Part shown: one piece after another, positions 16,632 to 26,206 of the stretch
Position numbering within the stretch: the first letter of the stretch is position 1
Layout of the letters: each line of letters starts with the position of its first letter
Source: Paucilactobacillus suebicus DSM 5007 = KCTC 3549
GTDB lineage: Bacteria; Bacillota; Bacilli; Lactobacillales; Lactobacillaceae
Direction: 5' to 3'
Length of the DNA stretch: 34,736 bases
Assembly (NCBI RefSeq): GCF_001434475.1
Contig: NZ_AZGF01000024.1
Span: forward strand, 1 to 34,736
Notes under the pieces: generated by a model
Told to the model about the DNA's origin: nothing
The model's database searches: none
The model's input: the letters and a program-made list of their open reading frames with translations, nothing else
Program-made: the position numbers and the translations under genes

Positions 16632-16841
16632 ATGAGTAAATCATTAATTGCACTGGTTTTGATTGTACCAATCCTGGTGTTTGCCATCATTGTTTGGATG
16701 ACGATGGCACATATTATTACAGGTTGGTTATTAATAGTTGTTTGGATAGTCGGATTTATCATGGCAACTGCTGCAACAACCGCAGTTATGACAATCGCAA
16801 AGTTGCAAAAATACGAAGATGATAAGGAAGACGAGGATTAA
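16632..16841 (+). CDS. Small two-helix membrane protein
   Basis: This is a 69-aa protein with two hydrophobic segments (about residues 5-26 and 32-54) and a charged acidic tail ending DDKEDED. I recognise no family. The SD AAAGGAG precedes the ATG by five to six bases. An extended -10 (TG-T-TATACT, -10 hexamer 16598-16603) lies just upstream. The gene sits four bases before the CPBP protease gene, and the two form an operon divergent from padR. Confidence 0.75.
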   Translation: MSKSLIALVLIVPILVFAIIVWMTMAHIITGWLLIVVWIVGFIMATAATTAVMTIAKLQKYEDDKEDED

Positions 16842-16845
16842 CACT

Positions 16846-17589
16846 ATGAGGCAACCAACGGATGCATGGGATCAGTTCAGTCGTCAAAAATCATTTTCAA
16901 ACTTTATTGGTTGGCTATCAAGTCTGCTGACACGAGCGGCGATCGTTGCTGGGCTATTTATTTTAATTCAAGTACCACCAACAGCGATGGAAATCTTGAG
17001 AGAACAGTCAAGTTTAAACCTCACTGCTATCATTACGATTGCGTGCTTTATCCTGGTGTTTATTGGCATCATTTGGCTCGCCAATCGCACTTTCCAAAGA
17101 TATAATCGGACACCAAAAGTTAAAATGCGTCTTCGAAAGAGTATTGGCTATGTTCTCTGGGGTTATATTGCTATATATGCGGGCCAAATTATCTTAGGCA
17201 TGCTTAACTTAATGGTCTATGATCAGAAGCAAACTGCAAATAATAGTGCTGTGTCTCAAATGATGGCTAATAACAATATGGTTATGATTGTTTTTGGCCT
17301 TTCAACGGTAATATTTACACCTATTGCTGAGGAATTAATTTTCCGTGGTGTGGTAACTAATTTGTTTTTTAAACCACAACAAATGTGGCCTAAGTTGATA
17401 CTGTCGGGCATTATTTTTTCTCTGGGTCATATGAGCACAAATATTATTAGTTTCCTGATCTATTTTTATATGGGGATGGTATTGGCCTTTGTTTATCAAA
17501 AGACTGGTAATATCAAGGTTTCAATGAGCCTGCATGCTTTAAATAATGTGATTGCCATTGGGCAAATGATTATGTTATTAACACATTAA
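16846..17589 (+). CDS. CPBP-family intramembrane glutamic protease
   Basis: This is a 247-aa polytopic membrane protein of the CAAX protease/bacteriocin-processing (Abi) family. It has the motif EELIFR (EExxxR), FSLGH (FxxxH), and HALNN (HxxxN-like) in the last third, with about six to seven hydrophobic segments. The ATG at 16846 follows GAGG inside the preceding gene; an earlier ATG at 16819 would overlap that gene heavily. Members process bacteriocin-like peptides, give self-immunity, or cut membrane proteins; nothing nearby names a substrate. Confidence 0.87.
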   Translation: MRQPTDAWDQFSRQKSFSNFIGWLSSLLTRAAIVAGLFILIQVPPTAMEILREQSSLNLTAIITIACFILVFIGIIWLANRTFQRYNRTPKVKMRLRKSIGYVLWGYIAIYAGQIILGMLNLMVYDQKQTANNSAVSQMMANNNMVMIVFGLSTVIFTPIAEELIFRGVVTNLFFKPQQMWPKLILSGIIFSLGHMSTNIISFLIYFYMGMVLAFVYQKTGNIKVSMSLHALNNVIAIGQMIMLLTH

Positions 17590-18359: not shown

Positions 18360-18387
18360 AGCAATATTGATCTAAAGAATGGAGATA

Positions 18388-19110
18388 ATGACAGTGAAAG
18401 ATAAGACCACAGTATACCAGCATGGTACATTAGCAATGCTGGTGGCGGGGTTGTTTGAAGGAACGATGCCGCTATCAGAGTTGTTATCACATGGTGATAA
18501 CGGTATTGGTACTGCTGACAGTCTCGATGGTGAGTTAGTCATTGTTGATGGTAAAGCGTACCAAGTGAAGGAGTCTGGGGCAGTTGTCGAAGTTGCACCA
18601 GACACTAAAATTCCATTTGCATCAGTTCATTATAATGATACTGATGCGCCAACAACCCGGATTGAAAACATCAATGATCGTAAGTTACAAGAAAAACTAA
18701 TTAAGGATAACGACATGTTTAATGTGTTCTATGGTATCCGCATTACGGGAACTTTTAGTCACATGCACACCAGAGTAGTTCCACGACAGGAAAAACCGTA
18801 TCCTAAGTTAACGGTGGCTACAAGGGTTCAGCCTGAGTTTGAACAAGACAATGTTCATGGAACAATCGTTGGCTATTTCATGCCATACCTATTTTTAGGA
18901 GCTGCAGTAGGTGGAATTCACTGGCACTTTATCAATGATAATCGTGATTTTGGTGGACACATATTGGACTTCCAATTAGAGAAGGGTGATGTAAGCGTCC
19001 AAGTGTTAGAAAACCTGAACCAACATCTACCCGTCAATAACAAAGCTTTCCGCCAGGCCCAGATTAATCTCCAACAAGTTGGGGATGATATTAATGAGGC
19101 GGAACACTAA
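18388..19110 (+). CDS. budA: Alpha-acetolactate decarboxylase
   Basis: The enzyme decarboxylates acetolactate to acetoin, draining pyruvate without acid formation and limiting diacetyl. It is 240 aa. The Zn ligands H178, H180 (GGIHWHF) and H191 (GGHILD) have the known 2- and 11-residue spacing, and the family motifs YQHGTL (10-15) and GIGTADSLDGEL (39-50) are clear. The start is uncertain: ATG 18379 has no SD, ATG 18388 is three bases from GGAG (18381-18384), and GTG 18394 is nine bases from it; I chose 18388. No acetolactate synthase gene is adjacent, so it stands alone. Confidence 0.95.
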   Translation: MTVKDKTTVYQHGTLAMLVAGLFEGTMPLSELLSHGDNGIGTADSLDGELVIVDGKAYQVKESGAVVEVAPDTKIPFASVHYNDTDAPTTRIENINDRKLQEKLIKDNDMFNVFYGIRITGTFSHMHTRVVPRQEKPYPKLTVATRVQPEFEQDNVHGTIVGYFMPYLFLGAAVGGIHWHFINDNRDFGGHILDFQLEKGDVSVQVLENLNQHLPVNNKAFRQAQINLQQVGDDINEAEH

Positions 19111-19286
19111 AAAGTGAGTGATCGAATAAAAAGTAAACCTGAAGGGCGGTCTTGTGGTTTATATTATGTGCATCAGCTTTTGTTTGCACGTTAAGACAGA
19201 AGACTATTCCCTCAAGAACTGACAAATACTTTAAAAACCATTAAATATTATTCATTGTGCAAAAGAATAAATTTTAAGTCAAAAGG

Positions 19287-19315
19287 TTGCAAGCACTTAC
19301 AATATATGCTAATAT
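19287..19315 (+). promoter_or_regulatory. Promoter of the unidentified RNA, overlapping a cre-like site
   Basis: TTGCAA (19287-19292), a 17-nt spacer, and an extended -10 TGC-TAATAT (hexamer 19310-19315). The 16-mer at 19287-19302 (TTGCAAGCACTTACAA) matches the cre consensus WTGNAARCGNWWWCAW at all positions except one (CA for CG) and covers the -35. Confidence 0.6.
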
Positions 19316-19321
19316 AATAGA

Positions 19322-19602
19322 CGAGGAAGGACAAATAAAGCTTTGAATGAACATAGATGAGTACAGTCGTAGAGGATTGGTACTTGGTTCAAAGCTCGTT
19401 CCTAGACGCCGAAGAAGAAGTAGGCGAGAAGCAGCGTAAGTGTGACCCTTAATATCGAATAAATTAATGGATGATTTTGGTTACCGGAGTGCGCTAGGAA
19501 TGATTTAAATAGTAACTTTGCGGAAGATATAGGTTACGAGTGATGCAAAGTCGCTACGTTCTTCCGAAAAAACCGCCAATGTTAATGATTGGTGGTTTTT
19601 TT
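19322..19602 (+). ncRNA. Unidentified structured RNA of about 280 nt
   Basis: A transcript from the promoter at 19287-19315 would end at the terminator at 19569-19602 without crossing a convincing gene. The 5' GGAAGGAC (19325-19332) pairs with 3' GTTCTTCC (19558-19565), closing the molecule. GCTTTGAA (19340-19347) pairs with TTCAAAGC (19388-19395) within a hairpin. CTTTGC (19516-19521) pairs with GCAAAG (19545-19550), interleaved with CGGAAGA (19521-19527) to TCTTCCG (19560-19566), so a pseudoknot or a switch is possible. It lacks the tmRNA, RNase P and SRP signatures. 6S RNA is a possibility because of the closed ends, but I cannot confirm it. Bases 19111-19286 hold no gene; TAAACC/GGTTTA (about 19133-19162) may end the budA transcript. 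Confidence 0.5.
19569..19602 (+). terminator. Terminator of the unidentified RNA
   Basis: AACCGCCAAT (19571-19580) pairs with ATTGGTGGTT (with one wobble) around GTTAATG, followed by an uninterrupted T run. Confidence 0.9.
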
Positions 19603-19614
19603 GTGACCAAATTA

Positions 19615-19730
19615 GAGTGTGAAATAAAGCGGTTAGATGCCAGAATGTAAGTGTGAAATTTTGTATATTCCGGGCTTGAATATGCGAAATTTTATCCTTA
19701 CATGGCAGGCATTTGCCTTATTTCACACGT
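19615..19730. repeat. Long intergenic hairpin element with GAGTG end
   Basis: GTGTGAAATAA (19617-19627) pairs with TTATTTCACAC (19718-19728). Inside, ATGCCA pairs with TGGCA/GGCAT, ATGTAAG (19645-19651) with CTTACAT (19697-19703), and GTATATTC (19663-19670) with GAATATGC (19678-19685) around the loop CGGGCTT. It spans about 112 nt between the RNA and the phosphatase gene. Its end GAGTGTGAAATAAAGCG recurs at 14467. Confidence 0.8.
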
Positions 19731-19791
19731 TTCAGCCAACAAAAAAAGCCAGACTCTAACCTCACAAAGCATCCAGCCAATTAAACATCAT

Positions 19792-20439
19792 TCAATCCTT
19801 AACATTGTAACTAGTAAATTCTTCTTCACCATTATGAATGGTTAATATCGAAACACTACCATTTTCGGGATAGTTGCCAATTGTATTAACTCCAAGGTAA
19901 TCGGCAAATGTTCGCAGAGCAGTTCCGTGTGTGACGACAAGAATGTTGGCATCTTTCGGACAAGCTTCTTTGATATGATTAATACCGACTTGCCAACGCT
20001 TAACGACATCATCGTACGTTTCGGCCAAATTACTAGAGTCTTCGGCTTTCATTAATTCACGAGCACCTCGTAAACCCTTATCATGAATTATCTCGTCTTG
20101 AGTATGGTATCCGTAGGGAGTACCGATTTCATTCCAAATTTCATCAGAATCACGACCTTCATATTCACCAAAAAGGACCTCACGAAAGTCTTTTGTTTTT
20201 TCAATAATATTTGGCTGCACAGTTAGCTGTTTCAGAATTAAATCACGGGTGGCAATTGCCCGTCCTGTGTTGGATGAAATTGCGGCATCGAAATGAGTTG
20301 TTGCCAACCGTTTGCCAACATTAACTGCATCAGCCTTGCCTTCGCTTGTTAAATCGGAATCGATCCAGCCTTGCATTCTATTAAACATGTTCAGCAGTGT
20401 TTTACCATGGCGCACGAAGTAGATGGTTTGTTGTGACAT
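19792..20439 (-). CDS. Histidine phosphatase (phosphoglycerate-mutase-like)
   Basis: This is a 215-aa cytosolic protein of the histidine phosphatase superfamily. The phosphohistidine motif is RHG (R10-H11-G12), with EVLFGEYEG as the acid-bearing segment and VVTHGTALR as the second catalytic histidine. It resembles 'phosphoglycerate mutase family' proteins of lactobacilli; whether it acts as a true mutase or as a small-molecule phosphatase cannot be told. The SD GGGAGG is five bases before the ATG at 20439; an ATG at 20469 lacks one. It is codirectional with and downstream of the LysR gene. Confidence 0.9.
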   Translation of the reverse strand: MSQQTIYFVRHGKTLLNMFNRMQGWIDSDLTSEGKADAVNVGKRLATTHFDAAISSNTGRAIATRDLILKQLTVQPNIIEKTKDFREVLFGEYEGRDSDEIWNEIGTPYGYHTQDEIIHDKGLRGARELMKAEDSSNLAETYDDVVKRWQVGINHIKEACPKDANILVVTHGTALRTFADYLGVNTIGNYPENGSVSILTIHNGEEEFTSYNVKD

Positions 20440-20492
20440 TAAATCCTCCCGTGGATAATTATTCCACAACCAGTATAGCAGAGTTTTTGATA

Positions 20493-21495: not shown

Positions 21496-21523
21496 TTGTA
21501 ATGAAAGCGCATTCATATATAAT
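21496..21523 (+). promoter_or_regulatory. PTS operon promoter with perfect cre site
   Basis: TTGTAA (21496-21501), a 16-nt spacer, and TATAAT (21518-21523). The spacer contains ATGAAAGCGCATTCAT (21501-21516), which matches the cre consensus WTGNAARCGNWWWCAW at every position. CcpA bound here would block polymerase, so the PTS is probably repressed by glucose-type sugars. Confidence 0.85.
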
Positions 21524-21601
21524 GGAGACAGACATAAATGCTGTTGTCTAAATTTGTAGTTGCAATTATCACTAGGATTTATAATTAGGGAGGTATTACA
21601 A

Positions 21602-22375
21602 ATGCACGTGACATTATCGGTCTGGCAAGCACTGCTGATTGCCATCTGGGTTGCTCTGATTGAATCTCGTATCTTAGGATTTGCTACGTTGACGATGCGG
21701 TTTAGTCCTTTGATGACAGGGATGATGGTTGGATTTATCATGGGTGACATCAAACAGGCAATGATTGTTACTGCCGCTATTCAGTTGGTTTATATGGGAT
21801 TTGTTGCACCAGGTGGAGCACTACCCGCTGAACCAAGTATTGGGGCTGCGATCGCGGTACCAGTTGCCATTTTAGGGCATATGAGTCCGCAAGGGGCGAT
21901 TGCAATCGCCGTGCCAGTTGCATTGCTTGGAAGTTATCTATATCAATTCAGGTTCTTCCTCAACACGTTTGCATTGAAATCGATGGATAGGTTTGCCGCG
22001 GCGGGGAACGCGCGCGGACTTGGGTTTTCAATCATGGTAATCCCAGCATGTATCTCATTTGCATTATTTATTCCACTGATCTTTATTGCACTTTACTTTG
22101 GTGCACCGGTTATTTCTAGTGTTGTTTCTAACATTGGCCATGGAACGATTATCCATGTTCTTAACAGTGTTGGTGGTGGTTTGGCAGCCTTGGGGATTGC
22201 AATCATCATGCAAGTAATTGGTAAGAAGACATTATTACCATTCTTCTTCCTGGCATACTTCATGAGTGTTGCCTTTGCTAAGCTTGACATTAACATGACG
22301 ATTTACGCAGTATTTGGTGCAATCTTTGCCATCATCTACGTAATGTTGACCCAAAGAAATACCGATAAAGGCTAA
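21602..22375 (+). CDS. Mannose-family PTS, component IIC
   Basis: This is the membrane-embedded sugar channel of a mannose/fructose/sorbose-type phosphotransferase system, 257 aa with about six to seven hydrophobic segments. The PTS_EIIC type-2 signature is visible (VAPGGALPAEPSIGAAIAVP). The ATG at 21602 has the SD GGGAGG eight bases upstream; an ATG at 21560 lies near the transcription start and lacks an SD. It is the first gene of a four-gene operon. Its sugar is not determinable; N-acetylgalactosamine, sorbose, fructose and mannose are all handled by this family. Confidence 0.93.
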   Translation: MHVTLSVWQALLIAIWVALIESRILGFATLTMRFSPLMTGMMVGFIMGDIKQAMIVTAAIQLVYMGFVAPGGALPAEPSIGAAIAVPVAILGHMSPQGAIAIAVPVALLGSYLYQFRFFLNTFALKSMDRFAAAGNARGLGFSIMVIPACISFALFIPLIFIALYFGAPVISSVVSNIGHGTIIHVLNSVGGGLAALGIAIIMQVIGKKTLLPFFFLAYFMSVAFAKLDINMTIYAVFGAIFAIIYVMLTQRNTDKG

Positions 22376-22389
22376 AGGAGGGCTTTATA

Positions 22390-23289
22390 ATGAGTGAAAC
22401 TGCAGATATTCAAGCAACTAATGATGAAGCGGTCCAAGAAGATACACCAAAACGCATCCCGCAACCTGACAAGATCACCAATAAGGACCTCATGAAGTCC
22501 TGGTTTGGTTGGTGGTGGGCTAACGAAGTCCCGCATACATTTGATAGAATGTTAGCACCATCATTTTGTTTCGGGTTAATTCCGAGTTTAAAGAAGCTGT
22601 ACAAAGATCATGATGAACTAGCAAAAGCCTTTCAACGCCACCTGCTGTTCTTTAACACGCAAGCAACGTGGGGTGGTGGAACACTGACTGGTGTGACCAT
22701 TTCACTGGAAGAAGCTCGTGCTAAGGCCATGGCTAACGGTGAAGAAGCAATTTCAGAAGACATGATCAACAACACAAAGGTCGGTTTGATGGGACCTTTG
22801 GCCGGTATCGGTGATTCAATTGACTCTGGGACTGTTCAGTATATTTTCATCGCCATTTTCTTACCATTTGCACAAAAAGGTAATTTCTTGGGAGCATTGC
22901 TACCATTCCTATGTTTCAGTATTGCAACATTTATTTACGGTTACTATCTGACAAAGATGGGCTATACCCTTGGTCGGAATGCTGCTAAGGAAATCATGAC
23001 TGGTGGAAGAATGGCAGGTATTATCGATGGTCTGGGGGTCATGGGACTCTACATGATGGGGATTCTGGCTGGCCAGTACATCACCGTGAAGAGTTACCTA
23101 AAATTCGATATTAACCAAAAGACATTTGATGTTCAGAAAATTTTGGACACAATCATGCCCGGTATGCTGCCACTATTAACTGTTGTGCTGTTATACCTCT
23201 ACTTCCAGAAACAAGGACTTAAGATCACTCGTGGTTTATTGTACTTGACTGGAGCGCTGATCGTTCTAAGTATTTTCTACATTATCTAA
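22390..23289 (+). CDS. Mannose-family PTS, component IID
   Basis: This is the second membrane component, 299 aa. The N-terminus is cytosolic (PDKITNKDLMKSWFGWWWANEV), followed by the family segments (AFQRHLLFFNTQATWGGGT, GLMGPLAGIGDSID) and C-terminal helices. Together with IIC it forms the transport channel. The SD AAAGGAGGG precedes the ATG, 14 bp after the IIC stop. Confidence 0.95.
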   Translation: MSETADIQATNDEAVQEDTPKRIPQPDKITNKDLMKSWFGWWWANEVPHTFDRMLAPSFCFGLIPSLKKLYKDHDELAKAFQRHLLFFNTQATWGGGTLTGVTISLEEARAKAMANGEEAISEDMINNTKVGLMGPLAGIGDSIDSGTVQYIFIAIFLPFAQKGNFLGALLPFLCFSIATFIYGYYLTKMGYTLGRNAAKEIMTGGRMAGIIDGLGVMGLYMMGILAGQYITVKSYLKFDINQKTFDVQKILDTIMPGMLPLLTVVLLYLYFQKQGLKITRGLLYLTGALIVLSIFYII

Positions 23290-23310
23290 TAAATTCAATG
23301 AGGTGGAACA

Positions 23311-23727
23311 ATGAAAAGAGCATTTCTCGTTATTACACACGGTGACATGGGAATTGAAACCGTCAAAAGTGTAGAATTACTGATGGGACCACAAGAAAAT
23401 GTGACTGGTTTGGGGCTTCATCCTGGTGAATCCGTGGACTCGTTAAGGGAACAAGCATATAAAGTATTAGATGATAACGAAGGTAAGTATGATGAAACAG
23501 TAGTCATTGTTGATCTACTGGGAGGAAGCCCATCAAACGTATCGTTATCAATGTTAGCTAAGTATCGGGAGTTAAAGATTATTACTGGTCTTAGTTTACC
23601 GTTACTAGTTAACTTGCTGAACTTCTCTGACGCAACAGAAGATACGGATCAATTAATCAATGACTCTATCGAAGTTGCCAGCGATGGCATGAAACTAATT
23701 GACAAAAACTTTTTGAAACATGACTAA
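23311..23727 (+). CDS. Mannose-family PTS, component IIA
   Basis: This is a 138-aa cytosolic phosphocarrier that takes phosphate from HPr on H10 (VITHGDMG). LLGGSPSNV is the family 'GGTP'-like turn, with GGSPSN around residue 70. It is separate from IIB rather than fused as in ManX. The SD GAGGTGG precedes the ATG by five to six bases. Confidence 0.94.
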   Translation: MKRAFLVITHGDMGIETVKSVELLMGPQENVTGLGLHPGESVDSLREQAYKVLDDNEGKYDETVVIVDLLGGSPSNVSLSMLAKYRELKIITGLSLPLLVNLLNFSDATEDTDQLINDSIEVASDGMKLIDKNFLKHD

Positions 23728-23752
23728 ATAAAGAAATTCGGAGGACAATCTT

Positions 23753-24220
23753 ATGGGACAAATTAATTTAGCACGGGTTGATGATCGTTTAATTCATGGT
23801 CAAGTTATGACTAAGTGGACAAAGGGTAAGGGCACAAACACGGTGTACGTTGTTGATAATGCCACTGCTGCCGATGATTTTATGAAGGATATTTACATTA
23901 GTACCAACTCAACCGGTGGATTGAAAATTAAAGTGTACAGTGATCAAGAGGTTGCCGATGAGTGGAAGAAAGATCAATTCGGCAGCGATAAAGTTGTTAT
24001 CATCTTCAAGTACATTAAAGAAGCCAAGGCGGCGATCGATGCAGGTCTTGAATTGGAAGAACTAAATGTTGGTGGTGTTTCTAAAAAGCCAAATACTGAG
24101 TTTGTAATTCCTACAGTTGCACTTGGAGACGATGATAAAGCGATTCTTGATGAACTGAAGGGTGATGGCATTAAGATCTATTTCCAGACAGTGCCTGATT
24201 CTAAGCGTGTAGATTACTAG
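23753..24220 (+). CDS. Mannose-family PTS, component IIB
   Basis: This is a 155-aa cytosolic component that accepts phosphate on H15 (RVDDRLIHGQV) and phosphorylates the incoming sugar. NVGGVSKKPNT is the conserved second loop. It is the last PTS gene and is followed by a terminator. No sugar-metabolising gene is in the operon, so the pathway for the imported sugar is elsewhere. Confidence 0.95.
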   Translation: MGQINLARVDDRLIHGQVMTKWTKGKGTNTVYVVDNATAADDFMKDIYISTNSTGGLKIKVYSDQEVADEWKKDQFGSDKVVIIFKYIKEAKAAIDAGLELEELNVGGVSKKPNTEFVIPTVALGDDDKAILDELKGDGIKIYFQTVPDSKRVDY

Positions 24221-25722: not shown

Positions 25723-25735
25723 AATATTGTTGCTT

Positions 25736-25819
25736 GCCCGAGTGGCGGAACTGGCAGACGCGCAGCGTTCAGGTCGCTGTATGGGTAACCATGTACAGGT
25801 TCGAATCCTGCCTCGGGCA
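25736..25819 (+). tRNA. tRNA-Leu (anticodon CAG)
   Basis: GCCCGAG (25736-25742) pairs with CTCGGGC (25812-25818), and the discriminator base is A (25819). The anticodon stem is CAGCG/CGCTG with the loop TTCAGGT, so the anticodon is CAG (25770-25772), reading CUG. The long variable arm (TATGGGTAACCATG) and the T arm AGGTTCGAATCCT are those of a class II tRNA. CCA is not encoded. A strong terminator follows, so this is a single tRNA unit. Confidence 0.97.
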
Positions 25820-25845
25820 TCAAGTAGCTATTTACCATTAACGAT

Positions 25846-25918: not shown

Positions 25919-26206
25919 TTAGTCTTCAAACTTAATCATAGTGCCATACCCAGTAATCACTAAGAATTTTGGTGCCACCTGCATCTCAACCACCTGAGTA
26001 TTGAAACGCACGTCGGAGATGCCATCAGCACCCGCATCGGTTGCGCGTTCCTTTAGTTTTTCCTGGACCTCAGAGAAGAGTTGATCCATAGATTCAAATG
26101 CATCAATGGTGGCGGAATCGAGCATTAAATGGCTTGTTGCGTTGACGATTCCTTGAATCGTATGACGGCGATGAATTGTACCCGTTGTTAAAAACATATA
26201 TTTCAC
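25919..26206 (-). CDS. YbjQ (UPF0145)-family protein
   Basis: This is a 95-aa cytosolic protein. The N-terminus MKYMFLTTGTIHRRHTIQGIV and the segment AGADGISDVRF, with a C-terminal GYGTMIKF, resemble YbjQ/UPF0145 proteins, annotated as heavy-metal-binding domain proteins; that function is not established. The SD GAGGTG precedes the ATG. It lies downstream of the MMPL gene but behind a strong terminator, so it probably has its own promoter. Confidence 0.8.
   Translation of the reverse strand: MKYMFLTTGTIHRRHTIQGIVNATSHLMLDSATIDAFESMDQLFSEVQEKLKERATDAGADGISDVRFNTQVVEMQVAPKFLVITGYGTMIKFED

Follow-up and report, generated by a model that had tools for sequence, protein, structure and literature searches.

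What is encoded between budA and the convergent gene that follows it in Paucilactobacillus suebicus DSM 5007 = KCTC 3549? The question is raised by positions 19287-19602 of the window (the whole stretch of DNA analysed here, 34,736 nucleotides of contig NZ_AZGF01000024.1). Read from the sequence, these positions form a compact unit with a cre box over the -35 element, an extended -10 element, a folded RNA of ∼245 nt and a terminator. The unit and the genes on either side are as follows.

18379-19110, plus strand: α-acetolactate decarboxylase gene budA (PF03306), on one side of the RNA unit
19287-19302, plus strand: cre box (candidate CcpA operator), sequence TTGCAAGCACTTACAA, overlapping the -35 element TTGCAA
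19307-19315, plus strand: extended -10 element TG-C-TAATAT, read from the sequence; a similar box is present in aligned homologues
19568-19602, plus strand: intrinsic terminator of the RNA (stem 19568-19600 plus T tail)
19792-20469, minus strand: histidine-phosphatase-family gene (PF00300), convergent to the RNA and the next gene downstream

The -35 and -10 elements are separated by 17 nt, and transcription would start at approximately 19321-19323. The terminator stem with its T tail folds at -15.5 kcal/mol (z = -5.95) and carries compensatory changes across seven Paucilactobacillus sequences. A simple consensus scanner listed neither the promoter nor the terminator of the RNA; its promoter cut-off was 9 consensus matches of 12, and by hand count the RNA promoter reaches 8 of 12. 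The initial annotation had described a complete unit with an extended -10 promoter and a strong terminator, and both the direct reading and the terminator z-score agree with it; the RNA looks like a stand-alone transcription unit.

The window holds other structured elements. A 121-nt near-perfect palindrome at 19616-19736 (z = -7.64; ends GTGTGAAATAA and TTATTTCACAC) has 18 matches in its own genome, counting itself and its own reverse complement, and is a dispersed palindromic, MITE-like repeat. A SAM-III riboswitch (163-272) lies ahead of the S-adenosylmethionine synthetase gene and a T-box (2650-2855) ahead of the leucyl-tRNA synthetase gene.

Of 60 genomes searched at the DNA level, the seven of the genus Paucilactobacillus, among them the window's own, all have the RNA; the remaining 53 gave no match. 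Covariance model R1, built from the seven Paucilactobacillus sequences, matched 18 further genomes among 397 of the family, all from one other genus. The core model R2 gave strong matches in the same two genera only (397 family and 395 order genomes) and the longer model R3 agreed with it over the 397 family genomes; over 269 class genomes the sole R3 match at E ≤0.01 was the window's own genome, so that the class sample seems to contain no further genome with the RNA, all of these scans having been run with Infernal's stricter filters, under which weak relatives could be missed. Among 50 Limosilactobacillus genomes, 40 match at E ≤0.01 (39 at E ≤1.1e-12 and G311 at 0.0068) and 10 have no model match. 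The copy in G311 (locus L058, positions 1401-1700; 4.1e-13 with R3) has the same core as L098 from Limosilactobacillus fastidiosus; by eye it has lost the cre promoter and part of helix P4 (see below), while the rest is recognizable, and it is a decaying copy of the RNA gene. Since 10 of 50 genomes are unmatched and one copy has decayed, some Limosilactobacillus species do without the RNA.

A pattern scan placed the RNA locus in Paucilactobacillus nenjiangensis, vaccinostercus, kaifaensis, oligofermentans and wasatchensis and in Limosilactobacillus oris, pontis, mucosae, vaginalis, panis, coleohominis, frumenti and others; 10 of the 40 Limosilactobacillus model matches yielded no locus in the model search itself, some of them being represented from other searches. 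A Lentilactobacillus record in the pattern scan was judged by eye to be a chance coding match. Weak model matches outside the two genera (E 0.007-0.09) were read by eye at L059-L064 and L152-L154 (a second weak match in G154 lies outside this reading), and none had such a promoter or RNA. A protein-guided search using budA found no relative of the RNA. Removal of the decayed L058 and the chance coding match L088 from 41 distinct cores gave the 39 sequences, window included, that are compared below; L112, which escaped the regular expression, is not among the rows. The homologues that the initial annotation had envisaged in Lactobacillaceae are thus present in two genera (7 of 7 genomes and 39 strong matches of 50).

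Do these loci descend from one ancestral gene, and does the RNA belong to a neighbor? Three further features of the window were followed across the loci.

16819-17589: Rce1/CPBP-like gene (PF02517)
25735-25821: tRNA-Leu(CAG)
25919-26206: YbjQ relative (PF01906, 23.2 bits vs. a cut-off of 23)

A relative of the Rce1/CPBP-like gene lies upstream in 31 of 33 Limosilactobacillus loci (a set that includes the decayed L058), and tRNA-Leu(CAG) is present in all nine Limosilactobacillus loci scanned, which were chosen since cmscan showed a tRNA of that size. Within the fetched flanks, a YbjQ gene lies downstream on the same strand in 20 of the 33 (L058 included); the other 13 have none in a fetched flank that is in some cases short. 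budA is upstream in five of seven Paucilactobacillus loci, and L006 and L007 have none of the window's tested neighbors. Because the Rce1-like, tRNA-Leu and YbjQ neighbors recur, the RNA is very probably orthologous between Paucilactobacillus and Limosilactobacillus, with a promoter of its own rather than a tie to one gene. The frequent YbjQ gene, a conserved internal core and a helix (P1) that closes directly 5′ of the terminator would also suit a cis-acting leader or riboswitch with the terminator as its expression platform. We consider this unlikely: the next gene in the window is convergent, whereas 20 of 33 Limosilactobacillus loci have YbjQ in the same orientation as the RNA, which makes the RNA unlikely to be the leader of one gene; YbjQ was not seen in the other 13; and in some loci a TATAAT-like box, noted by eye, precedes the downstream gene.

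A small mRNA is a second reading of a short transcription unit. Two sense open reading frames, of 30 and 31 amino acids, lie wholly inside the RNA, a third of 36 starts inside and overruns its end, and some copies share short similar peptides, up to 27 amino acids between close relatives. However, the one similar-looking frame crosses the conserved core and is interrupted by an in-frame TAG in 18 of 39 sequences, 10 of 39 have no closed sense frame of 20 amino acids, and compensatory changes explain the conservation. No reading frame is conserved across the 39 sequences, the initial annotation having seen no convincing frame in the window, and a coding role is highly improbable.

The fold is organized around five helices and a short internal hairpin (P3a), listed here in order of position.

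19325-19332, plus strand: P1 5′ strand GGAAGGAC, pairing with 19558-19565
19340-19395, plus strand: P2 hairpin, GCTTTGAA (19340-19347) with TTCAAAGC (19388-19395), variable in sequence and length
19396-19405, plus strand: P3 5′ strand (duplex with its own partner, -14.8 kcal/mol)
19408-19425, plus strand: P3a hairpin GCC ... GGC, with standard pairs in 34, 39 and 39 of 39 sequences at its three positions
19419-19440, plus strand: conserved core AGTAGGCnAGAAGCARCRTAAG, with many invariant columns, overlapping the 3′ side of P3a
19442-19447, plus strand: P4 5′ strand GTGACC, pairing with 19479-19484
19479-19484, plus strand: P4 3′ strand GGTTAC
19494-19503, plus strand: P3 3′ strand
19515-19551, plus strand: P5 hairpin ACTTTGC/GCAAAGT (19515-19521/19545-19551) with the conserved loop CGGAAGA, common to 37 of 39 sequences
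19558-19565, plus strand: P1 3′ strand GTTCTTCC, and candidate pairing partner for the P5 loop

The pairings of the initial annotation, GGAAGGAC with GTTCTTCC, GCTTTGAA with TTCAAAGC and the interleaved CTTTGC/GCAAAG (in full ACTTTGC/GCAAAGT) and CGGAAGA/TCTTCCG, can be read directly in the sequence. Positions 19320-19602, terminator included, fold at -87.2 kcal/mol (z = -5.68; none of 200 shuffles as good); the window RNA minus its terminator has a z-score of -3.92, and over the 39 sequences the mean is -2.2, with values below -2 in 22. As these whole-RNA scores are modest, it is covariation and not stability that carries the case. Whole-RNA alignment with MAFFT misplaced P1 in some rows, and alignment fitted to R1 misplaced P3 in several; helices were therefore counted by landmarks and on subalignments of 24 sequences (24 of 25, the duplicate core L025 being omitted) and 33 sequences (33 of the 37 with the usual P5).

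Of all the helices P3 stands out most clearly: its sequence turns over almost wholly while pairing with its own strand is kept. Across the 39 sequences the own-partner duplex averages -11.2 kcal/mol, vs. -5.8 kcal/mol with the strands of others (0 of 5,000 permutations); no foreign strand beats the own partner in 13 sequences and at most seven do in 36, the poor exceptions being L015, L017 and L019. P4 has changes on both sides at four of six positions in the 24 and the 39 sequences and at three of six in the 33; on the tree, position 6 has at least eight changes on each side and position 3 has three and six. In the 24-sequence alignment, 97.9% of the cells for P4 and the GCA/TGC pairs are standard pairs, and both partners have changed in 4 of 10 pairs, vs. 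0 to 2 in slid controls. Including P5, the 33-sequence alignment has 97.4% standard pairs and 6 of 19 pairs changed on both sides (slid controls, again 0 to 2). Shuffles of the 24 sequences reached the both-side count in 12 of 500 and the pair-type count in 480 of 500, with the other three measures at 0 of 500; for the 33 sequences, four of five measures stood at 0 of 500 and the fifth at 6 of 500, all these tests being inflated by the relatedness of the sequences.

P1 has standard pairs at positions 1 through 6 in all 39 sequences; at position 8 only 25 of them have a pair. At position 5, 31 sequences have GC and eight have AT, both strands having changed together in what is a single event on the tree. 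The P2 stem is predicted in 37 of 39, weakly in several, and is absent in L028 and L069. L006 and L007, which share their cores with L065 (P. nenjiangensis) and L089 (P. oligofermentans), respectively, have the P5 stem replaced in place by TGCAA/TTGCA. Judged by slid controls, shuffles, permutations and the tree, the covariation check proposed in the initial annotation thus finds several helices with compensatory change, which exceeds controls clearly in P3 and P4 and more weakly in P1 and P5.

The P5 stem interleaves with the pairing of its loop, CGGAAGA/TCTTCCG, and the initial annotation had noted that the T-rich 3′ strand could pair either with the 5′ end or with this loop. The comparison supports that ambiguity: in 36 of the 37 RNAs with an ordinary P5 (all but L032), the loop pentamer GGRAG is able to pair with the P1 3′ strand, at its last five bases. 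A comparison of the bare duplexes, which ignores loop-closing costs and takes up to 18 nt of the loop, ranks P1 as the more stable in 30 of 37 sequences and the loop pairing in seven; in 27 the two energies lie within 2 kcal/mol. Six of those seven fall among the eight sequences with the A-U change in P1. The loop kept CGGAAG in seven of these eight although both P1 strands had changed together, and the covariation therefore speaks for P1. In Limosilactobacillus the loop makes an extra contact (GAATC with GATTC, or variants of these) with the nucleotides that directly precede the final five of P1, with at least five contiguous pairs in 29 of 32 sequences (L030, L032 and L104 fall short); its own pairing was reached by 5 of 5,000 permutations, from which sequence relatedness was not removed. 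Five Paucilactobacillus sequences have the usual P5, and in these the complementarity of the loop, 7 to 12 nt long, falls on the P1 strand itself. A contact between the P5 loop and the strand at or beside P1 is thus moderately supported by the sequences, and a switch between P1 and the loop pairing is, on the duplex energies, a live possibility.

When would such an RNA be made? The box TTGCAAGCACTTACAA has one mismatch to the cre consensus WTGNAANCGNWNNCAW, which we take from the CcpA literature to be the CcpA binding consensus, and two to the stricter TGWAANCGNTNWCA; the window's own box has CA in place of the central CG. The 39 upstream regions, the window's included, match WTGNAANCGNWNNCAW with no mismatch in 24 and one in 15, at a position fixed 35 or 36 nt 5′ of the RNA's first conserved G; mononucleotide-shuffled upstream regions reach one mismatch or fewer in 0.35%. 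The cre-like sequence that the initial annotation saw over the -35 element, one base from consensus, is therefore kept in 39 of 39. A single gene of the genome exceeds the curated cut-off for CcpA (521.8 vs. 442.35 bits), so that both marks of a CcpA-regulated promoter, a cre consensus at the promoter and a CcpA gene in the genome, were found. On this basis, sugar control of the RNA is very probable. From the operator position over the -35 element and the presence of CcpA we infer that CcpA represses the promoter, although CcpA is also able to activate. According to passages of PMC8414754, about a third of lactic acid bacterial (LAB) species have cre boxes at the promoter of the 6S RNA gene, their position over the -35 element is interpreted as inhibitory, and 6S RNA is ∼3-fold up in a ccpA-deficient mutant of L. 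lactis. By analogy with LAB 6S genes and with RsaI (discussed below), the present RNA should rise, and is probably made, once the preferred sugar runs out. Elsewhere in the window a perfect cre match at 21501-21516 (chance expectation, 0.27 per window) lies just ahead of a four-gene sorbose/mannose-class PTS cluster (21560-24220).

Promoters of this kind raise the question of whether the RNA is itself a 6S RNA variant, an idea put forward in the initial annotation and encouraged by the cre boxes of LAB 6S genes. Over 19100-19800 the 6S model (RF00013) gave no row at E ≤10; the genome has a separate 6S gene above cut-off (G000:C1:63978-64165, L117; 58.3 bits vs. 46.4); and the predicted fold is multibranched, not a rod with a central bubble. 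The 6S reading is accordingly very improbable, and what stands of the earlier interpretation is that a structured RNA is encoded here, behind a cre promoter that is conserved. A cmscan with 4,227 models of Rfam 15, covering the window, 19 homologue loci and the 6S locus, returned nothing that reached gathering score over the RNA, either in the window or at the 19 homologue loci; up to E = 10, 19100-19800 yielded seven rows, all far below cut-off, the best over the RNA being Spd-sr07 (E = 2.2). The Rfam comparison suggested at the outset thus matched no known family. RsaI/RsaOG, whose model is presumably among the 4,227, gave no row in the window or in the 19 homologue loci. The RNA is undescribed in the literature searched, supplements and preprints aside, and the main texts of PMC8632094 and PMC11109978 contain no lactobacillus terms. 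Judged by comparative sequence analysis, it is a genuine structured RNA family of two genera without a match in Rfam 15.

How such an RNA might act is suggested by what varies in it. What stays constant lies in the core and the P5 loop and is mostly unpaired and rich in purines; what varies is the helices. Because the helices drift while the core stays fixed, we propose, with moderate confidence, that the RNA is a CcpA-repressed, stand-alone structured noncoding RNA (ncRNA), made on sugar exhaustion and working in trans through its fold, as a scaffold. In cells well supplied with preferred sugars, CcpA would sit on the cre box that covers the -35 element and block the promoter; when these sugars are exhausted, the RNA would be transcribed and end at its own terminator. 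It would fold into a closed multibranch form: the two ends meet in P1, a variable hairpin (P2) follows, and P3-P3a-P4 displays a core that hardly varies. The P5 loop would contact the strand at or beside P1, and this contact may replace P1 in a second state. In trans, it could then offer a binding scaffold to a protein or to another RNA and so tune metabolism when sugar is limiting. By sequence comparison, P3 and P4 are well shown in this scheme and P1 is supported.

A base-pairing small RNA resembling Staphylococcus aureus RsaI is possible, if doubtful. Here the pyrimidine-rich strand UUCUUCC/UUCCUUCC, freed from P1, would pair with the Shine-Dalgarno sequence of an mRNA, for example for sugar uptake, and block its translation, with the P5 loop setting the state. 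Passages of PMC9266662 describe RsaI as repressed by CcpA under glucose and as repressing translation of glcU_2 and fn3K by Shine-Dalgarno pairing; in the present RNA, the P1 3′ strand is complementary to GGAAGGA-type Shine-Dalgarno sequences, and the P5 loop competes for it at the nearly equal energy noted above. However, the pyrimidine strand is paired in both states, P1 covaries, and conservation among the unpaired nucleotides is highest in purine-rich parts, which do not resemble a C-rich seed. A surface presented to a protein or another RNA appears to fit better than a short C-rich seed, and the trans-acting scaffold remains our preferred reading.

More tentatively, the family may represent a new structured RNA class, wired to CcpA, whose core binds a protein, a metabolite or part of the ribosome and whose P1 and P5-loop pairings form a two-state switch. 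If so, heterofermentative lactobacilli would possess a dedicated sugar-starvation RNA with a reversible switch poised at nearly equal energy. CcpA control has been studied mostly via protein genes; here the CcpA pathway appears to have a conserved RNA, unmatched in Rfam 15, among its outputs, in two genera with named species such as L. mucosae, L. oris, L. pontis and L. vaginalis, and alignments, covariance models and a candidate operator are in hand for the design of experiments.

Three groups of known RNAs offer points of comparison. The 6S RNAs of LAB (RF00013) are likewise products of stand-alone ncRNA genes with a cre box over the -35 element in many species, and are probably CcpA-repressed (passages of PMC8414754); the present RNA has no match to their covariance model and a different fold, and both RNAs occur in the window's genome. 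RsaI (RsaOG) is pseudoknotted, as the present RNA may be. It too is a CcpA-repressed ncRNA gene, of 111 nt, in the account of PMC9266662 available to us, whereas the present RNA has ∼245 nt and comes from another bacterial group. Like RsaI, the present RNA has, by sequence, a candidate CcpA operator at its promoter; RsaI exposes C-rich motifs that pair with Shine-Dalgarno sequences, and here the UUCUUCC strand would be paired in P1 or with the P5 loop, a free state being conceivable. OLE, GOLLD and raiA are structured ncRNAs of bacteria that act as scaffolds or have no known role. They resemble the present RNA in having their own gene and a conserved core held by drifting helices, and differ in that the present RNA, which has no Rfam match, is found in two genera only.
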